Source: Stenotrophobium rhamnosiphilum (lineage in GTDB: Bacteria; Pseudomonadota; Gammaproteobacteria; Nevskiales; Nevskiaceae). From it: DNA of 64,000 nt. The stretch is from positions 62,001 to 126,000 of the forward strand of contig NZ_QANS01000008.1 of the NCBI RefSeq assembly GCF_003052265.1, read 5' to 3'. The notes below the pieces were generated by a model. It did not search any database. It saw only the letters and a list, made by a program, of their open reading frames with translations, and was not told where the DNA came from. This document shows, piece by piece, positions 50,587 through 60,446 of the stretch (positions within the stretch are counted from its first letter, which is position 1; the number at the start of each line of letters is the position of its first letter). The position numbers were made by a program, and so were the translations under genes.

Positions 50587-52179
50587 TTAGCGCTGCTCGC
50601 GCGTATCGGAGAAGCGTACTTCAGGATGACGCTCTTTCGTCATGTTCAAGTTCACGCTGCTCGACGCCAAGTACACCATCGTGCCGTAGTGATCCTTGGC
50701 CAGACGCGTTTCGTTCTTGTCGATGAACTCGCGTAGCTTCTTCTGATCGTCGCAATGCACCCAACGTGCGTTGTGAACCTGCACAGGTTCAAACACGCAG
50801 TCGACGCTGTATTCGTCTTTGAGACGGTACTGCACCACTTCAAACTGCAGCACACCGACGGCGCCGAGAATGATGTCGTTGTTGGTCATCGGGCGATACA
50901 CCTGCGTGGCGCCCTCTTCGCACAACTGATCCAAGCCCTTGTTGAGCTGCTTGGCCTTCAACGGATCTTTCAGAATGACGCGACGGAACAAGTCTGGCGC
51001 AAAGTTGGGAATACCGGTGAAGTGCAACGCTTCGCCTTCGGAGAATGAATCGCCGATGGAGATGGTGCCGTGATTGTGCAGACCGATGATGTCGCCCGGC
51101 CATGCTTGTTCAACGTTCTCGCGATCCGCCGCCATGAACGTCAACGCGTTGGAGATACGCACGGGGCCGTTGAGGCGAACTGAGTGCAACAACATGCCTT
51201 TGCGATAACTGCCTGAGCACACACGCAAGAACGCCACGCGGTCACGATGCTTAGGATCCATGTTCGCCTGAATCTTGAACACGAAGCCGGTGAACTTCTC
51301 GTGATCCGGATAAACCTCGCGATCAATGCCATTGAACTCGGCATTGCGCGGCTGCGGTGGTGGCGACCACTCGGTGAATCCATTCAACAATTCGCGTACG
51401 CCGAAATTGTTGATGCCTGAGCCGAAGAACACTGGCGTGAGCTTGGCTGCGCGATAAGCGTCGAGATCAAAACCATCGCCCGCCATCGACACAAGGTCAA
51501 TTTCGTCGAGCAGAGTTTGGTAATCCTGACCAAAGCGTTCGTGCAAACCTTCGGCGCGCAGACCATCAATCGTTTCAATTTCAGAAACGCGATGCTTGTC
51601 ACCGGAGTAGATGTAGAAGCGATCTTCCAACAGGTGATACACGCCTTTGAACGCGCGACCCATACCAATCGGCCAGGTGATCGGCGTGCAACGAATGTTG
51701 AGGATGCGCTCGATTTCGTCGAGCAGCTCCAACGGCGGACGGCTTTCGCGGTCCAGCTTGTTGATGAAGGTGACGATCGGCGTGGCGCGCAGGCGCGTCA
51801 CTTCCATCAATTTGATCGTGCGCGGCTCAACGCCTTTTGCGGCGTCGATGACCATCAGTGCGCTATCCACCGCGGTGAGCGTGCGGTAGGTGTCTTCAGA
51901 GAAGTCTTCGTGACCCGGCGTATCGAGCAGGTTGACAATTTTACCGTTGTACGGGAACTGCATCACCGAGGTGGTGATCGAGATACCGCGCTGCTGTTCG
52001 AGCGCCATCCAATCGGACGTGGCGTGGCGCGTGGCCTTGCGGCCCTTAACCGTACCGGCGAGCTGAATCGCTCCTCCGAACAGCAAGAGCTTTTCCGTCA
52101 GCGTGGTTTTACCAGCGTCCGGATGGGAAATGATGGCGAATGTGCGCCTGAGCGCGGCCTGATCTGCAGCTTCGGTCAT
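50587..52179 (-). CDS. prfC: Peptide chain release factor 3
   Basis: GTPase that recycles RF1/RF2 from the ribosome after termination. At 530 residues it is full length. G1 [16 protein letters not shown]2/switch I with [13 protein letters not shown]3 [14 protein letters not shown] and G4 FINKLDRE are intact. Domains II and III follow, with the typical [14 protein letters not shown]. The ATG is clear. Confidence 0.97.
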
Positions 52180-52215
52180 GTGTACGGGAACCCTGAAGGG
52201 CCGCGATTTTAGCCG

Positions 52216-53049
52216 CTATGGGGCTTTCGCGCTTGGGGCTTCGGGCGATTCGGGCAAATTAACCGGCGCTTCGCTGGGCACAGGCGCAATCTCTGGCGCG
52301 GGGACCGTGTCCTGCGTGGGGATTTCGACTTCCTGAGCGACAGGCTCAAGCACAGGAACCTGCTGCGGTGTCGGCGGCGACGCCGGGATCAGCTCGGGTG
52401 GCGGCATCGGGACTGGGACTGGCGCAGGCACCTGTACTTGCGGCGCGGGCTTGCGCCCCGGCAATCGCAGCCAACCTAAAACTCTCGGGTGGTTCACGGT
52501 GACGCCGTTGTCGCTACGCCGCAAAGCTAGGGTCTGGCGACTGCGGCCACTCGAGCCGGGGTTCTGCTGAATGAATTCCAACGAGCCCTCGGCGACCGCT
52601 GAAACAATGACGATATGGCCGTAAGGGTTTCCGGGTCGCGGCCCGAAAATCAGAATGTCTTCCAACTGTGGCGCCGTCGGCGACCCGTTTCGATATTGCA
52701 GCAAGCCGCGGCTTTTATTGAGCCCGCCATCCGCAACCTTCGCATCGAAATACTGCACGGCGTTGCCCGATGCATTCGGCATGCGATGTTTTAAGCGCTG
52801 GTAGTAATAGCGCTTAACGAATTCCACGCATTGATAACGCAGGCCGAGGTTGTAGCCGTCGACCGTGATGTTGCGGCCGTTGCTGTGACCAATCGCGCCG
52901 TTGAAATAAACAGGGATGCCATTGAGGCGATCGACGACATCGCCGACTTTTGGTGCGGGCGCAGCGCTGACCTGCGCGAGCGCTGCAGGGATAGCTAAAA
53001 GCGATGTCGCTATAACGAGGGCCGCGTATAGATGACTACGAACGCTCAA
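52216..53049 (-). CDS. Exported CHAP-domain amidase/endopeptidase with Pro-rich tail
   Basis: A 277-residue secreted protein. The signal peptide ends near AALA (about residue 25). The CHAP domain (about 35-190) has the catalytic Cys74 in YQCVEFVKRYYY and His145 in PYGHIVIVSA. Such domains cleave peptidoglycan or glutathionylspermidine-type amides. From residue about 198 to the end the protein is Pro/Val/Ala/Glu-rich (PAPVPVPMPPPE type), a probable flexible wall-spanning linker. It starts with TTG, with AAAGGA eight bases upstream. The target bond is not known. Confidence 0.85.
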   Translation of the reverse strand: MSVRSHLYAALVIATSLLAIPAALAQVSAAPAPKVGDVVDRLNGIPVYFNGAIGHSNGRNITVDGYNLGLRYQCVEFVKRYYYQRLKHRMPNASGNAVQYFDAKVADGGLNKSRGLLQYRNGSPTAPQLEDILIFGPRPGNPYGHIVIVSAVAEGSLEFIQQNPGSSGRSRQTLALRRSDNGVTVNHPRVLGWLRLPGRKPAPQVQVPAPVPVPMPPPELIPASPPTPQQVPVLEPVAQEVEIPTQDTVPAPEIAPVPSEAPVNLPESPEAPSAKAP

Positions 53050-53229: not shown

Positions 53230-54003
53230 CTATCGCCGAGTACCGAGCAAAATATCCCGCTCACGCAAATCACGAAGAATCTCCGCACCCGCATCCACCA
53301 CAGCTTGCGGTTGTGGGTGACCTAGCTCAGTCGCAATTTGAGTCAGCAGCTGCGTGCCGCTAGAGGTCACATCTTCTTCCAACAACTGCATCAATCGCGC
53401 CGTGACCGCGTTGATTTCCATAAACCGCACATCGTCCTGACGATTGCGATTGACGATGAGATAAGTCGGCTGCTCGCTGGGCGCTTCGGGAATTGAGTCG
53501 GGCCCGATGCGATGCACAGGCCATTCGTAAGACAGCGTCCATGCCAGCGGCGAGACCAAGGGCCTGCCTGCCATGACATCACCGTTTGGATTCGCCAGCT
53601 CAGGCGTCAGCGTTAACTCAGAAACTGACAACTCCAACTCCACCCATTCGTAATGGCACAACTCACGAAGAAACGGCGGATCATCTGCATGCTCGCCACG
53701 GCCATTTTCAAGAAAGCTCAAAAACTCTGCCGCGACGCGATGGAACAAAGGATCGTGACATTCATGTCGCGCATAAAAATCTCGCACGCGCGCATGCCAA
53801 ACGTCATCCGCAGAAATTTTTCGCAGAACCGGGAAAGCATTGGCGAGAAAGTCTTCGACGTTGTTGTAGAACAGATCGCGATAAATTTGCGTGCGGCGAT
53901 CTTCAACATCAGACGGCGCCGGGTTATGCGCCGGATTGCGTAGATGCGCGGCGAATTGGTATTGCGCCTGTTGAAAGCGAGGCAGCGTTGCGTGCTTATC
54001 CAT
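53230..54003 (-). CDS. hvfC: HvfC-like DUF2063 partner of a RiPP-modifying oxidase
   Basis: A 257-residue protein of the DUF2063 family, which pairs with DUF692 oxidases in RiPP biosynthesis and helps recognise the precursor. The N-terminal domain (about 1-100) has the [13 protein letters not shown] start and [20 protein letters not shown], the typical block; the C-terminal part is a second mixed domain. The ATG at 54003 lies inside the last codons of hvfB (8-base overlap), so the two proteins are translationally coupled. The longer frame to 54045 is not supported. Confidence 0.88.
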
Positions 54004-54847
54004 GCGCAGCGAGCAAACGTTTTTGATGTCGCGCCTGCATAGCATTGATGTGGCGCACTTCCACCATCAACTCATCGAGCGGGGGAATATTGAAGTCGCG
54101 CTCCAACAGCGTCGGGATCACGCCAAACTTTTCATAAGCACGATCAAGCAAGGCCCACACCGGATCAATCACATCAGAACCGTGTGTATCAACGCGCAGA
54201 TCCTCTGCTTCGTCGTAATGACCCGCCACATGGATATAGCGCACGCGCTCGCCGGGCAGGCCATCGAGAAACTTCACCGGGTCGTAGCGGTGATTAATGC
54301 TGTTGACGTAAATATTATTTACATCCAGCAACAAATCGCAGTCGGATCGCTCCAGCACTGCGCGAATAAATTCGAGTTCGCCCATCTCCTGCGCCGGGGC
54401 GGCGTAGTAGCTGGCGTTTTCTAAAGCGATGCGTCGTTCCAAAATATCTTGTACGCGTTGTACGCGCTTGGCGACGTAATCAACGGCTTCTTCCGTAAAC
54501 GGAATCGGCATTAAATCGTACAGGTGTCCATCGTCCGAGCAGTAAGTGAGATGCTCGGTGTAGTCGCGGATGCCGTGAAGATCGAGAAACTTCTTCAGGC
54601 GCCGGACAAAATCTTCATCGAGTGGCGCAGGGCTGCCAATCGAAAGTGAGAGTCCGTGTGTGACAAACGGAAAGCGCTCAGTAAATGAGCGAAATGTTTT
54701 GGCGTAGCTGCCGCCAATATCCATCCAATTTTCTGGCGTGGCTTCAAGAAAGCCGATCTCGCCGCGCGTAGCATCTGCAAGCGGGCCCGTGAGGGCCCGC
54801 CGCAGACCTAAGCCTGCACCTTGCACCGCTGTTGTGACATTGCCCAT
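53996..54847 (-). CDS. hvfB: HvfB-like DUF692 multinuclear iron-dependent oxidase
   Basis: TIM-barrel enzyme of the DUF692 family (MbnB/TglH/HvfB type, 283 residues). Members of this family convert Cys residues of a precursor peptide, in the Hvf type to an oxazolone-thioamide. Family blocks seen are [76 protein letters not shown] and IHVAGH, which supply the His/Asp/Glu metal ligands. The start is either ATG 54847 or TTG 54889 directly after the hvfA stop. It is coupled to hvfC and downstream of hvfA. Confidence 0.9.
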
Positions 54848-54889
54848 GGGAGGATTATGCCGTTGTAGCGATGCAGCTGCAGTGATCAA

Positions 54890-55234
54890 TTACTTCTTGT
54901 TGGCGCCGCACTTGCCTTCGCCACACTTGCCGTCAGCTTTCTTGCCGTCAGCGCCTTTCTTCTCGCCGCACTTGCCGTCAGCTTTCTTGGCTTCAGCGCC
55001 TTTCTTTTCGCCACACTTGTGTTCACCGGCTTTCTTTTCGCCGCACTTGGCTTCGCCAGCTTTCTTCTCGCCACACTTAGCTTCGCCAGCTTTGGCGTCG
55101 TCAGCGGCAGCAACCATGTAGCCGCTGCTCATTGCGCTGGTCTGAAAAACGGAAGCATTAGCGACTGCGCCGGTGAGCGCAAAAGCGGCGCCGAGAGCAA
55201 TGATGAGTGGCTTGCGGTTGTGGATGGTCTGCAT
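54890..55234 (-). CDS. hvfA: HvfA-like Cys-containing RiPP precursor, copy 1
   Basis: A 114-residue precursor with a signal-like leader (MQTIHNRKPLIIALGAAFAL, cleavage near VANA). It is followed by VFQT, GYMVAAADDA and a Lys/Glu/Gly-rich repeat core. Cys residues lie at 54, 64, 74, 89, 104 and 109. Three repeats read AGEAKCGEKK or AGEHKCGEKK (10-residue period), then ADGKCGEKK and ADGKCGEGKCG. Only the last has the EGKCG motif known from Haemophilus HvfA. The start is fixed by AGGAGA seven bases upstream. It lies between hvfX and hvfB. By family knowledge, selected Cys are modified and the product binds Cu(I); which Cys here is inference. Confidence 0.9.
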   Translation of the reverse strand: MQTIHNRKPLIIALGAAFALTGAVANASVFQTSAMSSGYMVAAADDAKAGEAKCGEKKAGEAKCGEKKAGEHKCGEKKGAEAKKADGKCGEKKGADGKKADGKCGEGKCGANKK

Positions 55235-55301
55235 GTGTATTCTCCTAGATATAAGGCCCTGAATGGACCGTTGGGTTAAACCTTGCGTAGGGCAATACGC
55301 C

Positions 55302-55898
55302 CTAGGCCTGGGATTGGATGCGTCGTTGAATCCAATAATCGACGCTGACATAGCGGCCGGCACCCGTGAAAAACAGTGACAGCAGCATGATTAAATAAGT
55401 TGCAGCGAACTCGATACCGTTGTTGAGGATCACCAGAGAGCCATGATCCGTCAGACGATCATAGTCACCGTGCTCCATCAGAATTTCTTTGATCTCTTGC
55501 AGACGATCAATTGCGCTCATCGTGCGCTCTGTAGCAAATGGGCCCATACCTTCAGATATCGCCAGCCAGCCATTCGGTAAATGCACCGTCACAATCGCAA
55601 CGAGCATCGTGAACATCAGCGGCAACGCGATCCAACGCACGCCCAAGCCCAGTACCAGAGCTGCAGCGCCCAATAATTCTGCGCTGGTTGCGAGCCCTGC
55701 CATTAATGTTGGAAACGGCAAGCCAAGTCCGTACATCGCATCGCCGAACCATTGAACCGTGTCCGGAAAATGCATCGCCTTGTTCATACCGGCAACAAAG
55801 AAGATTGGCGCGAGATACAAACGCAGCGCCAAGGGCGCCAGAAAATCCAACTGGCGCGTCGCGTCTAAGTAGCCTTGCATCTTGAGCAGGAGTTTCAT
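55302..55898 (-). CDS. hvfX: HvfX-like DoxX-family membrane protein of the RiPP operon
   Basis: A 198-residue polytopic membrane protein of the DoxX family, first gene of the operon (hvfX-hvfA-hvfB-hvfC). Four or so helices are apparent (about 22-40, 65-90, 95-115 and near the C terminus); the N-terminal part has LRLYLAPIFFVAGMNKAMHF. DoxX-type proteins are standard in Hvf/bufferin loci and probably aid maturation or export. A shorter start at 55898 is chosen over the Met at 55919; both have weak Shine-Dalgarno sequences. The divergent AraC-type gene begins about 40-80 bases away. Confidence 0.85.
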   Translation of the reverse strand: MKLLLKMQGYLDATRQLDFLAPLALRLYLAPIFFVAGMNKAMHFPDTVQWFGDAMYGLGLPFPTLMAGLATSAELLGAAALVLGLGVRWIALPLMFTMLVAIVTVHLPNGWLAISEGMGPFATERTMSAIDRLQEIKEILMEHGDYDRLTDHGSLVILNNGIEFAATYLIMLLSLFFTGAGRYVSVDYWIQRRIQSQA

Positions 55899-55975
55899 GG
55901 CGTTTCCGTGTTTTTCCATGGGGTGAATGTTAGGCTTTGACGATCATCTCAACTGCGTGTCCGCGTCCGGTTTTT

Positions 55976-56818
55976 ATGCTCGAGAGTACGGAAGACCGAA
56001 TCCTAGACGCTGCGCTGACGGCCTACCAGCTGCATGCCAAGGTCACTGATAACGCTACCTATTGTGACCACTGGCAAGAAGCCGAAGCAGCCGTTAAAGC
56101 CTGCATTTTTCATTTGATCGGTGAAGGCCAGTGCGTACTCAAGATGCCCGGCCTTGATGGGCCACAAACCTTGATCGCCGGCGATTTGGTGGTGTTTCCA
56201 CACGGCGCCGCGCACCATCTCAGCGGCGATGGCTACACCACGATGCTCTGCGGCCAGTTCGATTTCATCATCGGCCCCAAGAATCCGATTCTCGACGCCT
56301 TGCCTGACTGCGTCATTGTGCGCGCAAGCGAAGCGGGCACTGCATTTCAACGCATCGCACAAATCATGTGCGAAGAAGCACGCAGCAGCAGCTTTGGCAG
56401 CCGCGCAGTGCTCGATAAGTTGGCGGACTCTTTATTCGTGATGACCGTGCGTCATCATCTCAGCACCACCACTCACCGCCGCGGCCTGCTGGCGGCGTTG
56501 GCCGATCCAAAATTGCGTCGCGCCCTTTCTGTGATGCATTTGAATCCCGGACAAGATTGGACCGTAGCTGAACTCGCCACAGAAGCCTGCATGTCGCGCA
56601 CAGCATTCTCAGAATTATTCAGCGCCGTATTAGGCACCAGCCCGATTAACTACCTCACGCAGTGGCGCATGATGGAAGCGCTGAAGCTTGTGCAAGATTC
56701 CAGCTTGTCGATGCTCGCGATTGCAGAGAAATTTGGTTATCAAACCGAAGCTGCATTCCGTCGGAGTTTTAAACGCATACACGGCCACGGCCCCGGACAT
56801 TTCCGTCGCGCCAAATAA
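55976..56818 (+). CDS. AraC-family regulator (cupin-6 sensor type)
   Basis: A 280-residue AraC-type activator placed head to head with the hvf operon and end to end with the second precursor gene. The N-terminal cupin-like region has GEGQCVLKMPGLDGPQTL and LVVFPHGAAHHLSG, typical of the cupin_6 group; the C-terminal double HTH holds WTVAELATEACMSRTAFSEL and QTEAAFRRSFKRIHGHGPGH. His/Cys residues in the sensor (HGAAHH, CGQFDF) could bind a metal, which is inference. An in-frame TTG at 55937 would add 13 residues. It probably regulates the divergent hvf operon. Confidence 0.88.
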   Translation: MLESTEDRILDAALTAYQLHAKVTDNATYCDHWQEAEAAVKACIFHLIGEGQCVLKMPGLDGPQTLIAGDLVVFPHGAAHHLSGDGYTTMLCGQFDFIIGPKNPILDALPDCVIVRASEAGTAFQRIAQIMCEEARSSSFGSRAVLDKLADSLFVMTVRHHLSTTTHRRGLLAALADPKLRRALSVMHLNPGQDWTVAELATEACMSRTAFSELFSAVLGTSPINYLTQWRMMEALKLVQDSSLSMLAIAEKFGYQTEAAFRRSFKRIHGHGPGHFRRAK

Positions 56819-56847
56819 AAAAAGCCCCGGCAATGCCGAGGCTCTTT
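56818..56847. terminator. Bidirectional hairpin terminator between the AraC gene and the second hvfA
   Basis: AAAGCCCCGGC and GCCGAGGCTCTTT form an imperfect stem around AAT with an A-run on the left and a T-rich tail on the right. It separates the two converging genes by 42 bases. Confidence 0.65.
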
Positions 56848-56860
56848 CAAAACATTCCGC

Positions 56861-57175
56861 TTACTTCTTCTTAAGCTGGCCGCACTTGCCTTCACCGCAT
56901 TTGCCTTCGCCACACTTATGTTCTGCATTCTTGTCAGCAGCCTTACCCTTCGCAGGTTTCTGCTCACCACACTTCAGCTCGTGAGATTTCTTATCTGACT
57001 TCGGTGCTGGCGTCGCAGGCGCAGCAGCATCCGCAGGTGCGGCATCCGCCGCTGCCACCATATAACCCGTGCCGAGATCAGCAGTCTGAAACGTCGAGGC
57101 CTGCGCCGTTGCACCGCTCAAAGCAAAAGCCGCGCCGAGCACAACCGCTAAAGGCTTCTTCGAAATCGTGTTCAT
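56861..57175 (-). CDS. HvfA-like Cys-containing RiPP precursor, copy 2 (separate from the operon)
   Basis: A 104-residue paralog of the first precursor. The leader is alike (KPLAVVLGAAFALSGATAQA, then TFQT and GYMVAAADAA), followed by an Ala/Pro-rich spacer and a core with four Cys at 69, 88, 93 and 98. The core reads HELKCGEQK, then AEHKCGEGKCGEGKCGQLKKK-type text with two GEGKCG units. I chose the ATG at 57175 because GGAG lies eight bases upstream; the longer frame to 57232 adds unrelated residues. It has no modification genes of its own, so it probably uses the HvfB/HvfC of the adjacent operon in trans. Confidence 0.88.
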   Translation of the reverse strand: MNTISKKPLAVVLGAAFALSGATAQASTFQTADLGTGYMVAAADAAPADAAAPATPAPKSDKKSHELKCGEQKPAKGKAADKNAEHKCGEGKCGEGKCGQLKKK

Positions 57176-57367
57176 CGCCAACACTCCATATTGATAGAGA
57201 CCGCAAGAAAATAACATTTTGTATATGAACATTGATTGAACAATGACATTGGCGGTGTTTTTATTTATCCAACATTAGTTAATTTCGTAGCCAAATTATG
57301 CCCGCGCACGTCAACGCTCTATATACTTCGCCACCCAAGAGCACCGCGCGTGCGGAAAACACTCACC

Positions 57368-57444
<77 letters not shown>

Positions 57445-57450
57445 ATCAGT

Positions 57451-57479
57451 CTTTATGCACTCCCAATGAGTGCATAAAG
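57451..57479. repeat. Perfect 12-bp-arm hairpin directly after the tRNA
   Basis: CTTTATGCACTC and GAGTGCATAAAG enclose a five-base loop CCAAT, seven bases after the CCA end. There is no T-run, so it is not a simple terminator; a terminator follows separately at 57487. It may be a tRNA-processing structure or part of an integrase site at the tRNA 3' end. Confidence 0.6.
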
Positions 57480-57486
57480 CGCACTT

Positions 57487-57709: not shown

Positions 57710-58819
57710 CTAGCTTTTGGCGTGCCAATCACATGTCCATGACTGCAGCTCGGCGATGTTGAACTTGTTGTCAATCACAATAGCCGCACTCGCCCTTGCG
57801 CGAGTAAGAGCCACGTAGAATTTCGCACGGGTCTCCGACGTAAGTTCCACTTCCCGGTTTCCCAACCAGTCAACGAAGTCATTCGTTGGGTAGATCAGCA
57901 CCCTTTCAAACGCAAGCCCTTTCGACTCGCCGAAATTCATCGCTGCGACTGCATCGGAAACTGCCGTTTTTTTTGAATGGCGCAACTGCATCGGCGCAAA
58001 TACTCGAAGGTATGCTTCGACGTCTCGCTTCCTAACAAGGAAAATGCCGTCATGATCTGTAGTTTTTGTATTAGACGATTTGCCACTCGAAAATTTCGGA
58101 AAAAGCGCATCCGACAGCTCGCAAAGCGCCGGATTGCATCGATGATTAACAGATAGCGATATCTCGTCAATTGCAGTATCCAGTCGGGCCGCAGCCAATT
58201 CTCGAAAGTAGTCGACAATTCCGGATTTTTTGAATTTTTTGTACTTTGGGGAATCACTGGTCGAATACGTGCCTTGGCGAGGATCACCAACTAGCATCAC
58301 TTTTAGTGCTGATTCCATAAAAAGCTCAATAAGCTCGAGATCGTACCCCGCCAAGTCCTGAACTTCGTCGATATAAATTTCATCGAAGATGGCGGCAATA
58401 CGCTTTACCACTCTCCCGGACGAGAGAGCGTCACACTTCACAGCGAACTTTGAAATCTTGTCGCGGTATATTTGATTGTGTTGGTTAAGGTAGTGCCGAA
58501 TATCCGTCTCTTTAACGTAATGAGCCGATATACCCTGATTAAAATGCAACCCCTCGATACGCGCATCAGTTATACAGCCCTGATACGGGCGAACAGAATG
58601 CTGGAGTAAAAAAGTTAGCCATCCGGATACCGTTACATTTGACGGTACAAATCCATTCTTTTCCAGAAATTTCTTTTCTATCTCCGCCTTGTTTGTCTCG
58701 GTATAGGTCAAAATAATGACCTTTGAATTCGGGTTTGATAGCGCTGCGTTGACTAGGAGCGTGGTTTTTCCAGATCCCGCAGCTGCAATAATAATTCTGT
58801 TCTTCTCTGCGTCGACCAT
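57710..58819 (-). CDS. Compact UvrD-like SF1 helicase (GajB-like)
   Basis: A 369-residue helicase of the UvrD/Rep type with all core motifs: Walker A AAAGSGKTT (12-20), DEVQD (151-155), GDPRQ (178-182), NHRCN (225-229), ESKGLAFERV (298-307) and YVALTRARA (335-343). It is shorter than typical GajB or UvrD proteins, and the inserts between motifs are small, so the accessory 1B/2B domains are reduced. It starts one base after the stop of the OLD-type gene and is surely co-translated with it. Codon use is richer in A/T than in the flanking core genes, consistent with transfer. The family pairing suggests phage defence; direct function is inference. Confidence 0.85.
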   Translation of the reverse strand: MVDAEKNRIIIAAAGSGKTTLLVNAALSNPNSKVIILTYTETNKAEIEKKFLEKNGFVPSNVTVSGWLTFLLQHSVRPYQGCITDARIEGLHFNQGISAHYVKETDIRHYLNQHNQIYRDKISKFAVKCDALSSGRVVKRIAAIFDEIYIDEVQDLAGYDLELIELFMESALKVMLVGDPRQGTYSTSDSPKYKKFKKSGIVDYFRELAAARLDTAIDEISLSVNHRCNPALCELSDALFPKFSSGKSSNTKTTDHDGIFLVRKRDVEAYLRVFAPMQLRHSKKTAVSDAVAAMNFGESKGLAFERVLIYPTNDFVDWLGNREVELTSETRAKFYVALTRARASAAIVIDNKFNIAELQSWTCDWHAKS

Positions 58820-58820
58820 T

Positions 58821-60446
58821 TTACTGATCGATTGCGGAAGTGATGTACGCAGGGAAATTGGCGGCCAAAAGAGAATTGAAAATCTTTAAAGCGCAATCCG
58901 TTTTGTTTGCGCGCATATACTTCAAGAGCTTCGCTTCCTCGTTGAATTTTGTTCCGAGAATTTCCCCCATCAAAACGCATCCATTTACGGAGAGCATTCT
59001 CGGCTCAAGCGTATTGAAATTAAAACCCTCACCATCAAGCTCTCGGCGATCATCCACTGTTTCTTCGAAGCAAATGCGGATATGTTTCTTTTCATTCGCA
59101 CCCAGATAGTTCTCATACTTTTTCTTTAGTGCCGCGACATCGCCATCGTTGTCCGTAACTACGACAACGGTTTTCTTCAGCTTCTCAGCAATTGCCAAGA
59201 ATCGAAGAAAGCTTGTTCCAACGGATATCACGTCAACACCAACCGCTATCGGCAATTTCCCGTGTTTATTTTGGTACGCTTTCTGAACAATGAGCTCATC
59301 GGAATCCCCCTCAACTAGTATTGCGCTCTTACATAGCAAAAGTCGCAGAGTGTCGTATCCAGCAAGTTTCTGAAAAAACGAGGCAGTATCGGGATCGAGC
59401 TCACTCAATCGAGCTGTCCTTCCATTGTGAAGCATTATTAGATTCGAAAGGTTCGCTTTATTCGCGACAAAGCTACTATGCGTCGTCATAATGATCTGCT
59501 TGTCGACGTTCGTGGAAGACATCATATCGATGAGCTGATTTAAACGTGAATGAGACAAGTGATTTTCTGGCTCCTCCACGAGTAGGACATTCGCGTTCTG
59601 CGCTTTCTTGTGCGATAGAGCAATAGCAATCTTAGCCAGCGACTGTTCGCCTTTCCCAATAAAATGAAATGGGATCTGATCAATACAAGTAATGAGATTT
59701 GATTCCCATGCACTACGCGCTGCCAGATCAATAGCCAGAGAAATTTCTCTTCCAGCAAGCAGATCGTTTGCTTTGTTTATTTTTTTATTGACTTCACCAA
59801 CCTCATCGTTCCGTCGAAAGTCGTCAGCCATCTCGCGATGAACTTTAGCAAGGGCTACGCGCTCCTTATCATCTAGAAAGTCGCGAACAATGCGTGACAC
59901 ATAAGCGTCAGATCCATTCTGATTGCGCGCACCTGCGGAATCGATGAACGCCGCCGACAACGAAATTCCTCGTATCGTCAGCGGCTTTCGTGCAAATGAC
60001 TCAACCACGATTTCGTAGTATTCAATCGGGAGGCCCGTCACGCCACTCTTAACAAACTCGCTGTATACACCACGATACTGCTCATCAAAGCGAGCCGAGA
60101 ATTTGATACCGGCCGCGTCCTGATCTCGCAGAGAATTCCCGTTGCCTTTATATTCTGCGATGCCGTCCCCACCGAAATAAATTTCGATAAGAAGCTCTGG
60201 TGGGCCGCTCGTCGGATCAGCAATATATGTCTCTACAACATTACGGTTGAATACGTGCTCAGAAAGATCGTTTCGCAAGAAGCGTCCGTGAAAAACGCCT
60301 GAGAGAGCTAGGTTAATCGCCTCCAGGATAGTCGACTTTCCAGAATCGTTATCGCCGACTACGACGTTAACGCCTTTATTGAACTCCAACACAAAATTTC
60401 CGTGGAAACATTTGAAGTTTTTGATTATTAATTTTGCGATATGCAT
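58821..60446 (-). CDS. OLD-family ATPase/TOPRIM nuclease (GajA-like)
   Basis: A 541-residue protein with an N-terminal ABC/SMC-type ATPase split by a coiled-coil-like insert. Walker A is GDNDSGKST (31-39), the signature GKGEQS is at 264-269 and Walker B is VLLVEEPE (287-294). The C-terminal TOPRIM nuclease has ILVEGDSDE with E379 and TDNDGD with D432 and D434. This layout is the OLD (overcoming lysogenisation defect) family. Pairing with a UvrD-like helicase one base downstream defines class 2 OLD proteins, to which GajA of the Gabija system belongs. GajA is an ATP-sensed nickase that acts on phage DNA. It begins the two-gene operon and lies about 160 bases after the coiled-coil protein gene on the same strand. 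Confidence 0.88.
   Translation of the reverse strand: MHIAKLIIKNFKCFHGNFVLEFNKGVNVVVGDNDSGKSTILEAINLALSGVFHGRFLRNDLSEHVFNRNVVETYIADPTSGPPELLIEIYFGGDGIAEYKGNGNSLRDQDAAGIKFSARFDEQYRGVYSEFVKSGVTGLPIEYYEIVVESFARKPLTIRGISLSAAFIDSAGARNQNGSDAYVSRIVRDFLDDKERVALAKVHREMADDFRRNDEVGEVNKKINKANDLLAGREISLAIDLAARSAWESNLITCIDQIPFHFIGKGEQSLAKIAIALSHKKAQNANVLLVEEPENHLSHSRLNQLIDMMSSTNVDKQIIMTTHSSFVANKANLSNLIMLHNGRTARLSELDPDTASFFQKLAGYDTLRLLLCKSAILVEGDSDELIVQKAYQNKHGKLPIAVGVDVISVGTSFLRFLAIAEKLKKTVVVVTDNDGDVAALKKKYENYLGANEKKHIRICFEETVDDRRELDGEGFNFNTLEPRMLSVNGCVLMGEILGTKFNEEAKLLKYMRANKTDCALKIFNSLLAANFPAYITSAIDQ

Follow-up and report, generated by a model that had tools for sequence, protein, structure and literature searches.

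For oxazolin of Haemophilus influenzae, the hvf operon has been described to encode HvfX, HvfA, HvfB and HvfC, with six cysteines in repeated KCG motifs in its precursor; the passages concerned describe one precursor and mention no AraC gene (PMC13419390, PMC13097082). Oxazolin was reassigned to 5-thiooxazole, copper binding was shown, and the name captophorins was introduced (PMC13097082), so that the oxazolone/thioamide chemistry assumed in an earlier note on the DNA studied here is out of date. Another captophorin, fontiphorin, is encoded by fonABC of Fontimonas thermophila, which belongs to the Nevskiaceae (NCBI taxonomy) and is close to the genome analysed here. It is described as the product of a minimal cluster of an EGKCG-type precursor, an MNIO and a DUF2063 partner, and the passages concerned mention neither a second precursor nor an AraC gene (PMC13097082). 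For the wider group of MNIO clusters, tandem precursor genes were reported in the Buf1 and Buf2 clusters, other precursors were located separately from the MNIO genes, and a genome was found to contain as many as 4 Buf_EGKCG precursor genes; the authors suggested that some MNIOs take more than one substrate (PMC12452194, in the parts considered).

The window analysed here, a stretch of 64,000 nucleotides of Stenotrophobium rhamnosiphilum, contains a locus with the same four Hvf proteins as the oxazolin operon and the same core of precursor, MNIO and partner as fontiphorin. On the minus strand, the genes are ordered hvfX-hvfA-hvfB-hvfC, with an AraC-type gene divergent to hvfX on the plus strand. 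Beyond what is mentioned for the two described systems, a second EGKCG-type precursor gene, designated hvfA2 here, is located past the AraC gene on the minus strand and is convergent with it. Precursors outnumber modifying enzymes in this locus, as in the tandem and stand-alone cases of PMC12452194; however, the statement on tandem genes in that paper concerns the Buf1 and Buf2 families, whereas the extra gene here lies behind a regulator gene. Literature searches at the level of titles and abstracts, among them MNIO or DUF692 in combination with AraC, revealed no description of this arrangement.

The starts of hvfX, hvfB, hvfC and the AraC-type gene within their open reading frames were inferred from alignments and ribosome-binding sites. 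The hvfX gene (55302..55898, minus strand, frame open to 55919) codes for a DoxX-family membrane protein, with 230.6 bits for NCBIfam NF050144 (cut-off 80) and a Pfam DoxX domain. HvfB (53996..54847, minus strand, frame open to 54889) is an MNIO (formerly DUF692) maturase, which scores 434.7 bits for NF003818 (cut-off 360), belongs to the Pfam family MbnB_TglH_ChrH and matches 3bww with an E-value of 1.2e-71, sharing the stretches 'RR' and 'LLERDFN'. The profile and the structure match place it in the HvfB/BufB group expected of a captophorin or Buf_EGKCG-oxazolin cluster. By motif rather than by alignment with FonB, its Arg-Arg and ERDF stretches were equated with Arg15/Arg16 and Asp249/Phe250 of FonB, as these are given in PMC13097082. 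HvfC (53230..54003, minus strand, frame open to 54045) reaches 315.5 bits for NF050145 (cut-off 142) and contains the Pfam domains DUF2063 and NGO1945_C together with a weak match to 3dee (E 1.5e-05), the composition of a PME1 partner with DUF2063 and an RRE-like domain. The AraC-type protein (55976..56818, plus strand, frame open to a TTG at 55937) consists of Cupin_6 and HTH_18 domains; its best NCBIfam model is that of RclR, an AraC regulator for reactive chlorine, at 132.5 bits, far below the cut-off of 400, which makes it a relative and not a member of that family. Open reading frame positions, NCBIfam and Pfam thus bear out the six genes as the earlier note had placed them, and its assignment to an Hvf-type cluster agrees with the scores of HvfX, HvfB and HvfC above their cut-offs.

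Downstream of hvfC, the region 50587-53049 (minus strand) codes for peptide chain release factor 3 (RF3_C, GTP_EFTU) and a CHAP-domain protein. Judged from the open reading frames, L080 and L082, in which a related AraC gene occurs without hvf, apparently have a release factor 3 gene beside it as well. On the other side, a tRNA-Met gene (57368-57444, plus strand) is located beyond the gap upstream of hvfA2, and beside it a Gabija-type defence pair was identified at 57710-60446 (minus strand), with 436 bits for the GajB-like and 653 bits for the GajA-like protein (PADLOC).

The operon-linked precursor HvfA (54890..55234, minus strand, 114 aa) and the second precursor HvfA2 (56861..57175, minus strand, 104 aa) both exceed the cut-off of 19.5 of the KCGExKCG domain model NF050137, with 34.4 and 29.1 bits, respectively. 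For the full-length HvfA equivalog NF050188, scores of 36.8 and 19.4 bits were obtained against a cut-off of 95, and the two proteins are therefore filed as KCGExKCG-domain precursors and not as HvfA equivalogs; a Pfam search identified no family for either. HvfA contains six cysteines and HvfA2 four, and all ten are located in [DE]xKCG, the cysteine context described as accepted by FonBC (PMC13097082), so that both genes show the repeated KCG motifs typical of precursors in such clusters. The earlier claim of two cysteine-rich precursors with matching leaders holds on these core contexts and domain scores. Both leaders are of the KKPL...ALGAAFALTG...A-AS type, which is common to the family and Sec-like by appearance; for the HvfA studied in PMC13419390, efficient modification was reported to need the Sec signal. 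Ribosome-binding sites precede both start codons, AGGAG in hvfA and GGAG in hvfA2. In the sister species, the operon precursor (L037:8011-8460) has irregular core cysteine contexts (HSC, SNC, GECMC) beside normal KCG motifs. A 5-thiooxazole captophorin is the product to be expected here, and the peptide is probably copper-binding.

Across the genome, which is 99.7% complete and consists of 21 contigs, profile searches identified one MNIO, which is HvfB, and one DUF2063 protein, which is HvfC, while the KCGExKCG model matched only hvfA and hvfA2 at E-values up to 1. This agrees with the earlier description of a second precursor that has no modification genes of its own next to a single HvfB/HvfC pair. 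Consequently, if HvfA2 is modified in this way, HvfB and HvfC do it, and HvfA2 most likely uses the same enzymes as HvfA. The sister genome G057 has other MNIO matches besides hvfB, and the sharing of one enzyme is thus evident only for the genome of the window.

Several precursors per enzyme also occur elsewhere in the class. In a class-wide draw, the KCGExKCG domain was found in 76 of 274 genomes (E up to 0.001), and eight genomes with several precursor places were picked by eye from among the places listed. G210, G173 (76% complete) and G327 each have a single MNIO match and two or more precursor places, from which it follows that sharing one pair is not special to this genus. Two MNIO matches each were present in G207, G267 and G291, and three in G215. 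G220 contains two EGKCG precursor loci (L182, L183), and no MNIO was detected in it with an E-value of 0.001 or lower. Among class relatives, L161 and L167 contain tandem EGKCG precursors, in the case of L161 in a genome with one MNIO match (G327); unlike here, both genes are on one strand directly before hvfB. Two-cysteine precursors of the form EH[SA]CGEGGCG, without a KCG motif, were seen before hvfB in L193, L194 and L195 of the family.

Within the bacterial family, 33 of 58 genomes code for an HvfB that scores over the cut-off. The 34 hvf loci compared came from 28 genomes with a KCGExKCG match, among them G026 with an incomplete HvfB that stays under the cut-off, and from the six remaining genomes over the HvfB cut-off. 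An AraC relative is divergent to hvf in 26 of these loci; its linkage is usual in the family, and the unusual feature of the locus is therefore not the AraC gene. The earlier suggestion of novelty was overstated in view of this linkage and of the tandem and stand-alone precursors already in print (PMC12452194, in the parts considered). A second EGKCG precursor past the AraC gene was found in two of the 24 AraC-linked loci with a visible far side, after leaving out L049 and L062, which end within 130 bases past AraC. At least two KCG motifs, or a looser equivalent, were required, so that precursors with few motifs could escape this count, and one frame in L052, which contains a lone KCG and was regarded as due to chance, was left unscored.

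Both of these loci belong to the genus of the window. In G057 (L037), the only other genome of the genus compared, the arrangement is the same, with an hvfA2 orthologue in the same place and the tRNA-Met gene upstream of it. In a scan of named genomes with the regulator alignment, 80 of 425 loci were kept, with Solimonas, Nevskia and Panacagrimonas among the named neighbours. One of the 80, L072 (Nevskiaceae bacterium Bin_35_3), also has the arrangement, presumably not a case independent of G057.

The leaders of the two species are 83% identical for HvfA and 71% for HvfA2, compared with 63-64% between HvfA and HvfA2 within one genome. Across species and copies, 60% and 69% were obtained, the latter for HvfA of G057 and HvfA2 of the window; since 69% is hardly lower than 71%, the dating of the duplication depends chiefly on the shared position. 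A duplication of the precursor gene before the split of the two species is the simplest reading. Between the species, dN/dS of the leaders was about 0.10 for hvfA (36 codons) and 0.13 for hvfA2 (35 codons), rough values given that dS exceeds 1, and both copies look constrained. An alternative is that hvfA2 is a leftover duplicate heading for loss, either unexpressed or made but unmodified, in line with its restriction to one genus, with a promoter that is not recognisable and with upstream DNA that by eye is little alike in the two species. However, the open frame, the ribosome-binding site, the leader and four intact motifs were retained in both species, and together with the low dN/dS of the leader this makes such decay quite improbable.

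A difference between the copies was identified at the leader site before LxxGY, which is Asp or Glu in all 29 precursors of the family that come from other genera (25/25 and 4/4). Within the genus, both HvfA have Ala at this site and both HvfA2 keep the acidic residue, so that HvfA and HvfA2 could be handled differently. That the acidic residue is essential for recognition was not upheld as a firm claim, since the site varies by eye across the class sample and since Ala changes in FonA were tolerated: as reported, the Ala scan revealed no position before the core as strictly needed (PMC13097082). It is conceivable, though doubtful, that the roles were split after duplication, with hvfA2 keeping the family-type leader and the operon copy losing the acidic residue and changing its core. 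One HvfB/HvfC pair would then give two captophorins that differ in metal capacity and are controlled separately, and it would process one precursor in preference to the other.

For the regulation, a conserved block was identified between AraC and hvfX (55924..55971, minus strand), with GGAC followed by CTAACAT 35 nt on, which may represent a binding site of the regulator and a -10 box. In all 12 selected gaps, GGA[CT] and CTA[GA][CT]AT were exactly 35 nt apart, a spacing which may partly reflect the AraC reading frame, as a stop codon lies inside the block. These 12 were picked from 23 extracted gaps because the block was visible; in those left out (L038, L039, L042-L046, L050, L052, L054 and L063), CTA[GA][CT]AT was not visible or hvfX did not adjoin AraC. 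Common control of both precursors by the AraC protein is an alternative: as one regulon, hvfX and hvfA2 would each have a binding site for the protein in their upstream DNA and would be switched on together, so that the two precursors would contribute to a single response. In both genomes of the genus, the regulator gene is flanked by the precursor genes on its two sides, and it adjoins hvf in most of the family loci as described above. However, the block was not detected ahead of hvfA2 in either of the two genomes, with best scores of -5.8 and -5.6, near the background (mean -7.4, sd 4.5, 95th percentile 0.9; 317 windows of 200 bp), compared with 33 and 47 at hvfX. The model is only fairly specific, as without its own genus it scored the own hvfX site at 13.2, lower than one background window at 20.0. 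Thus, hvfA2 seems not to share the element, although the absence of a motif is a limited test and weak evidence where the block itself is a putative operator. Control of hvfA2 by the AraC protein is unsupported on this account, and a single regulon appears unlikely.

The promoter of hvfA2 must be located in the gap of 57176..57367 (minus strand). A scan of 55850-57480 revealed no sigma-70-like site for either hvfX or hvfA2, and a putative terminator between AraC and hvfA2 is visible by eye but was not called. In the regulator, His46, Cys53, His80 and Cys92 are kept in 26 of 26 hvf-linked rows and are common to nearly all rows. Cys30, likewise present in all 26, was rejected as a mark of hvf linkage, since it occurs in 19 of 64 unlinked rows too. 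Together, the five residues form a candidate sensing site, for which a metal or redox role is a guess.

As the explanation that we consider rather probable as a whole, the locus is a captophorin cluster of the EGKCG/oxazolin type with a precursor gene that underwent duplication ahead of the separation of two Nevskiales species of one genus, and both products are modified. On the two precursors, which bear the same kind of Sec-type leader, HvfB together with HvfC would convert the cysteines of the KCG motifs into 5-thiooxazoles, and the products would be exported and would bind excess Cu(I). The divergent AraC-type protein probably controls the hvfXABC operon, and transcription of hvfA2 from its own promoter would allow its dose to differ from that of the operon.

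Only the arrangement is new, and it is a small variation on a known system. The cluster is an ordinary one of the probable captophorin type, in a family close to the source of fontiphorin, and its unusual point is the second, separately placed precursor gene. If HvfA2 is indeed modified in trans, the system would show one MNIO pair shared between substrates, and it would offer a natural leader pair with and without the acidic residue, useful for recognition tests. As the AraC gene is linked to hvf throughout much of the family, its product is a candidate for the regulation of captophorin genes.
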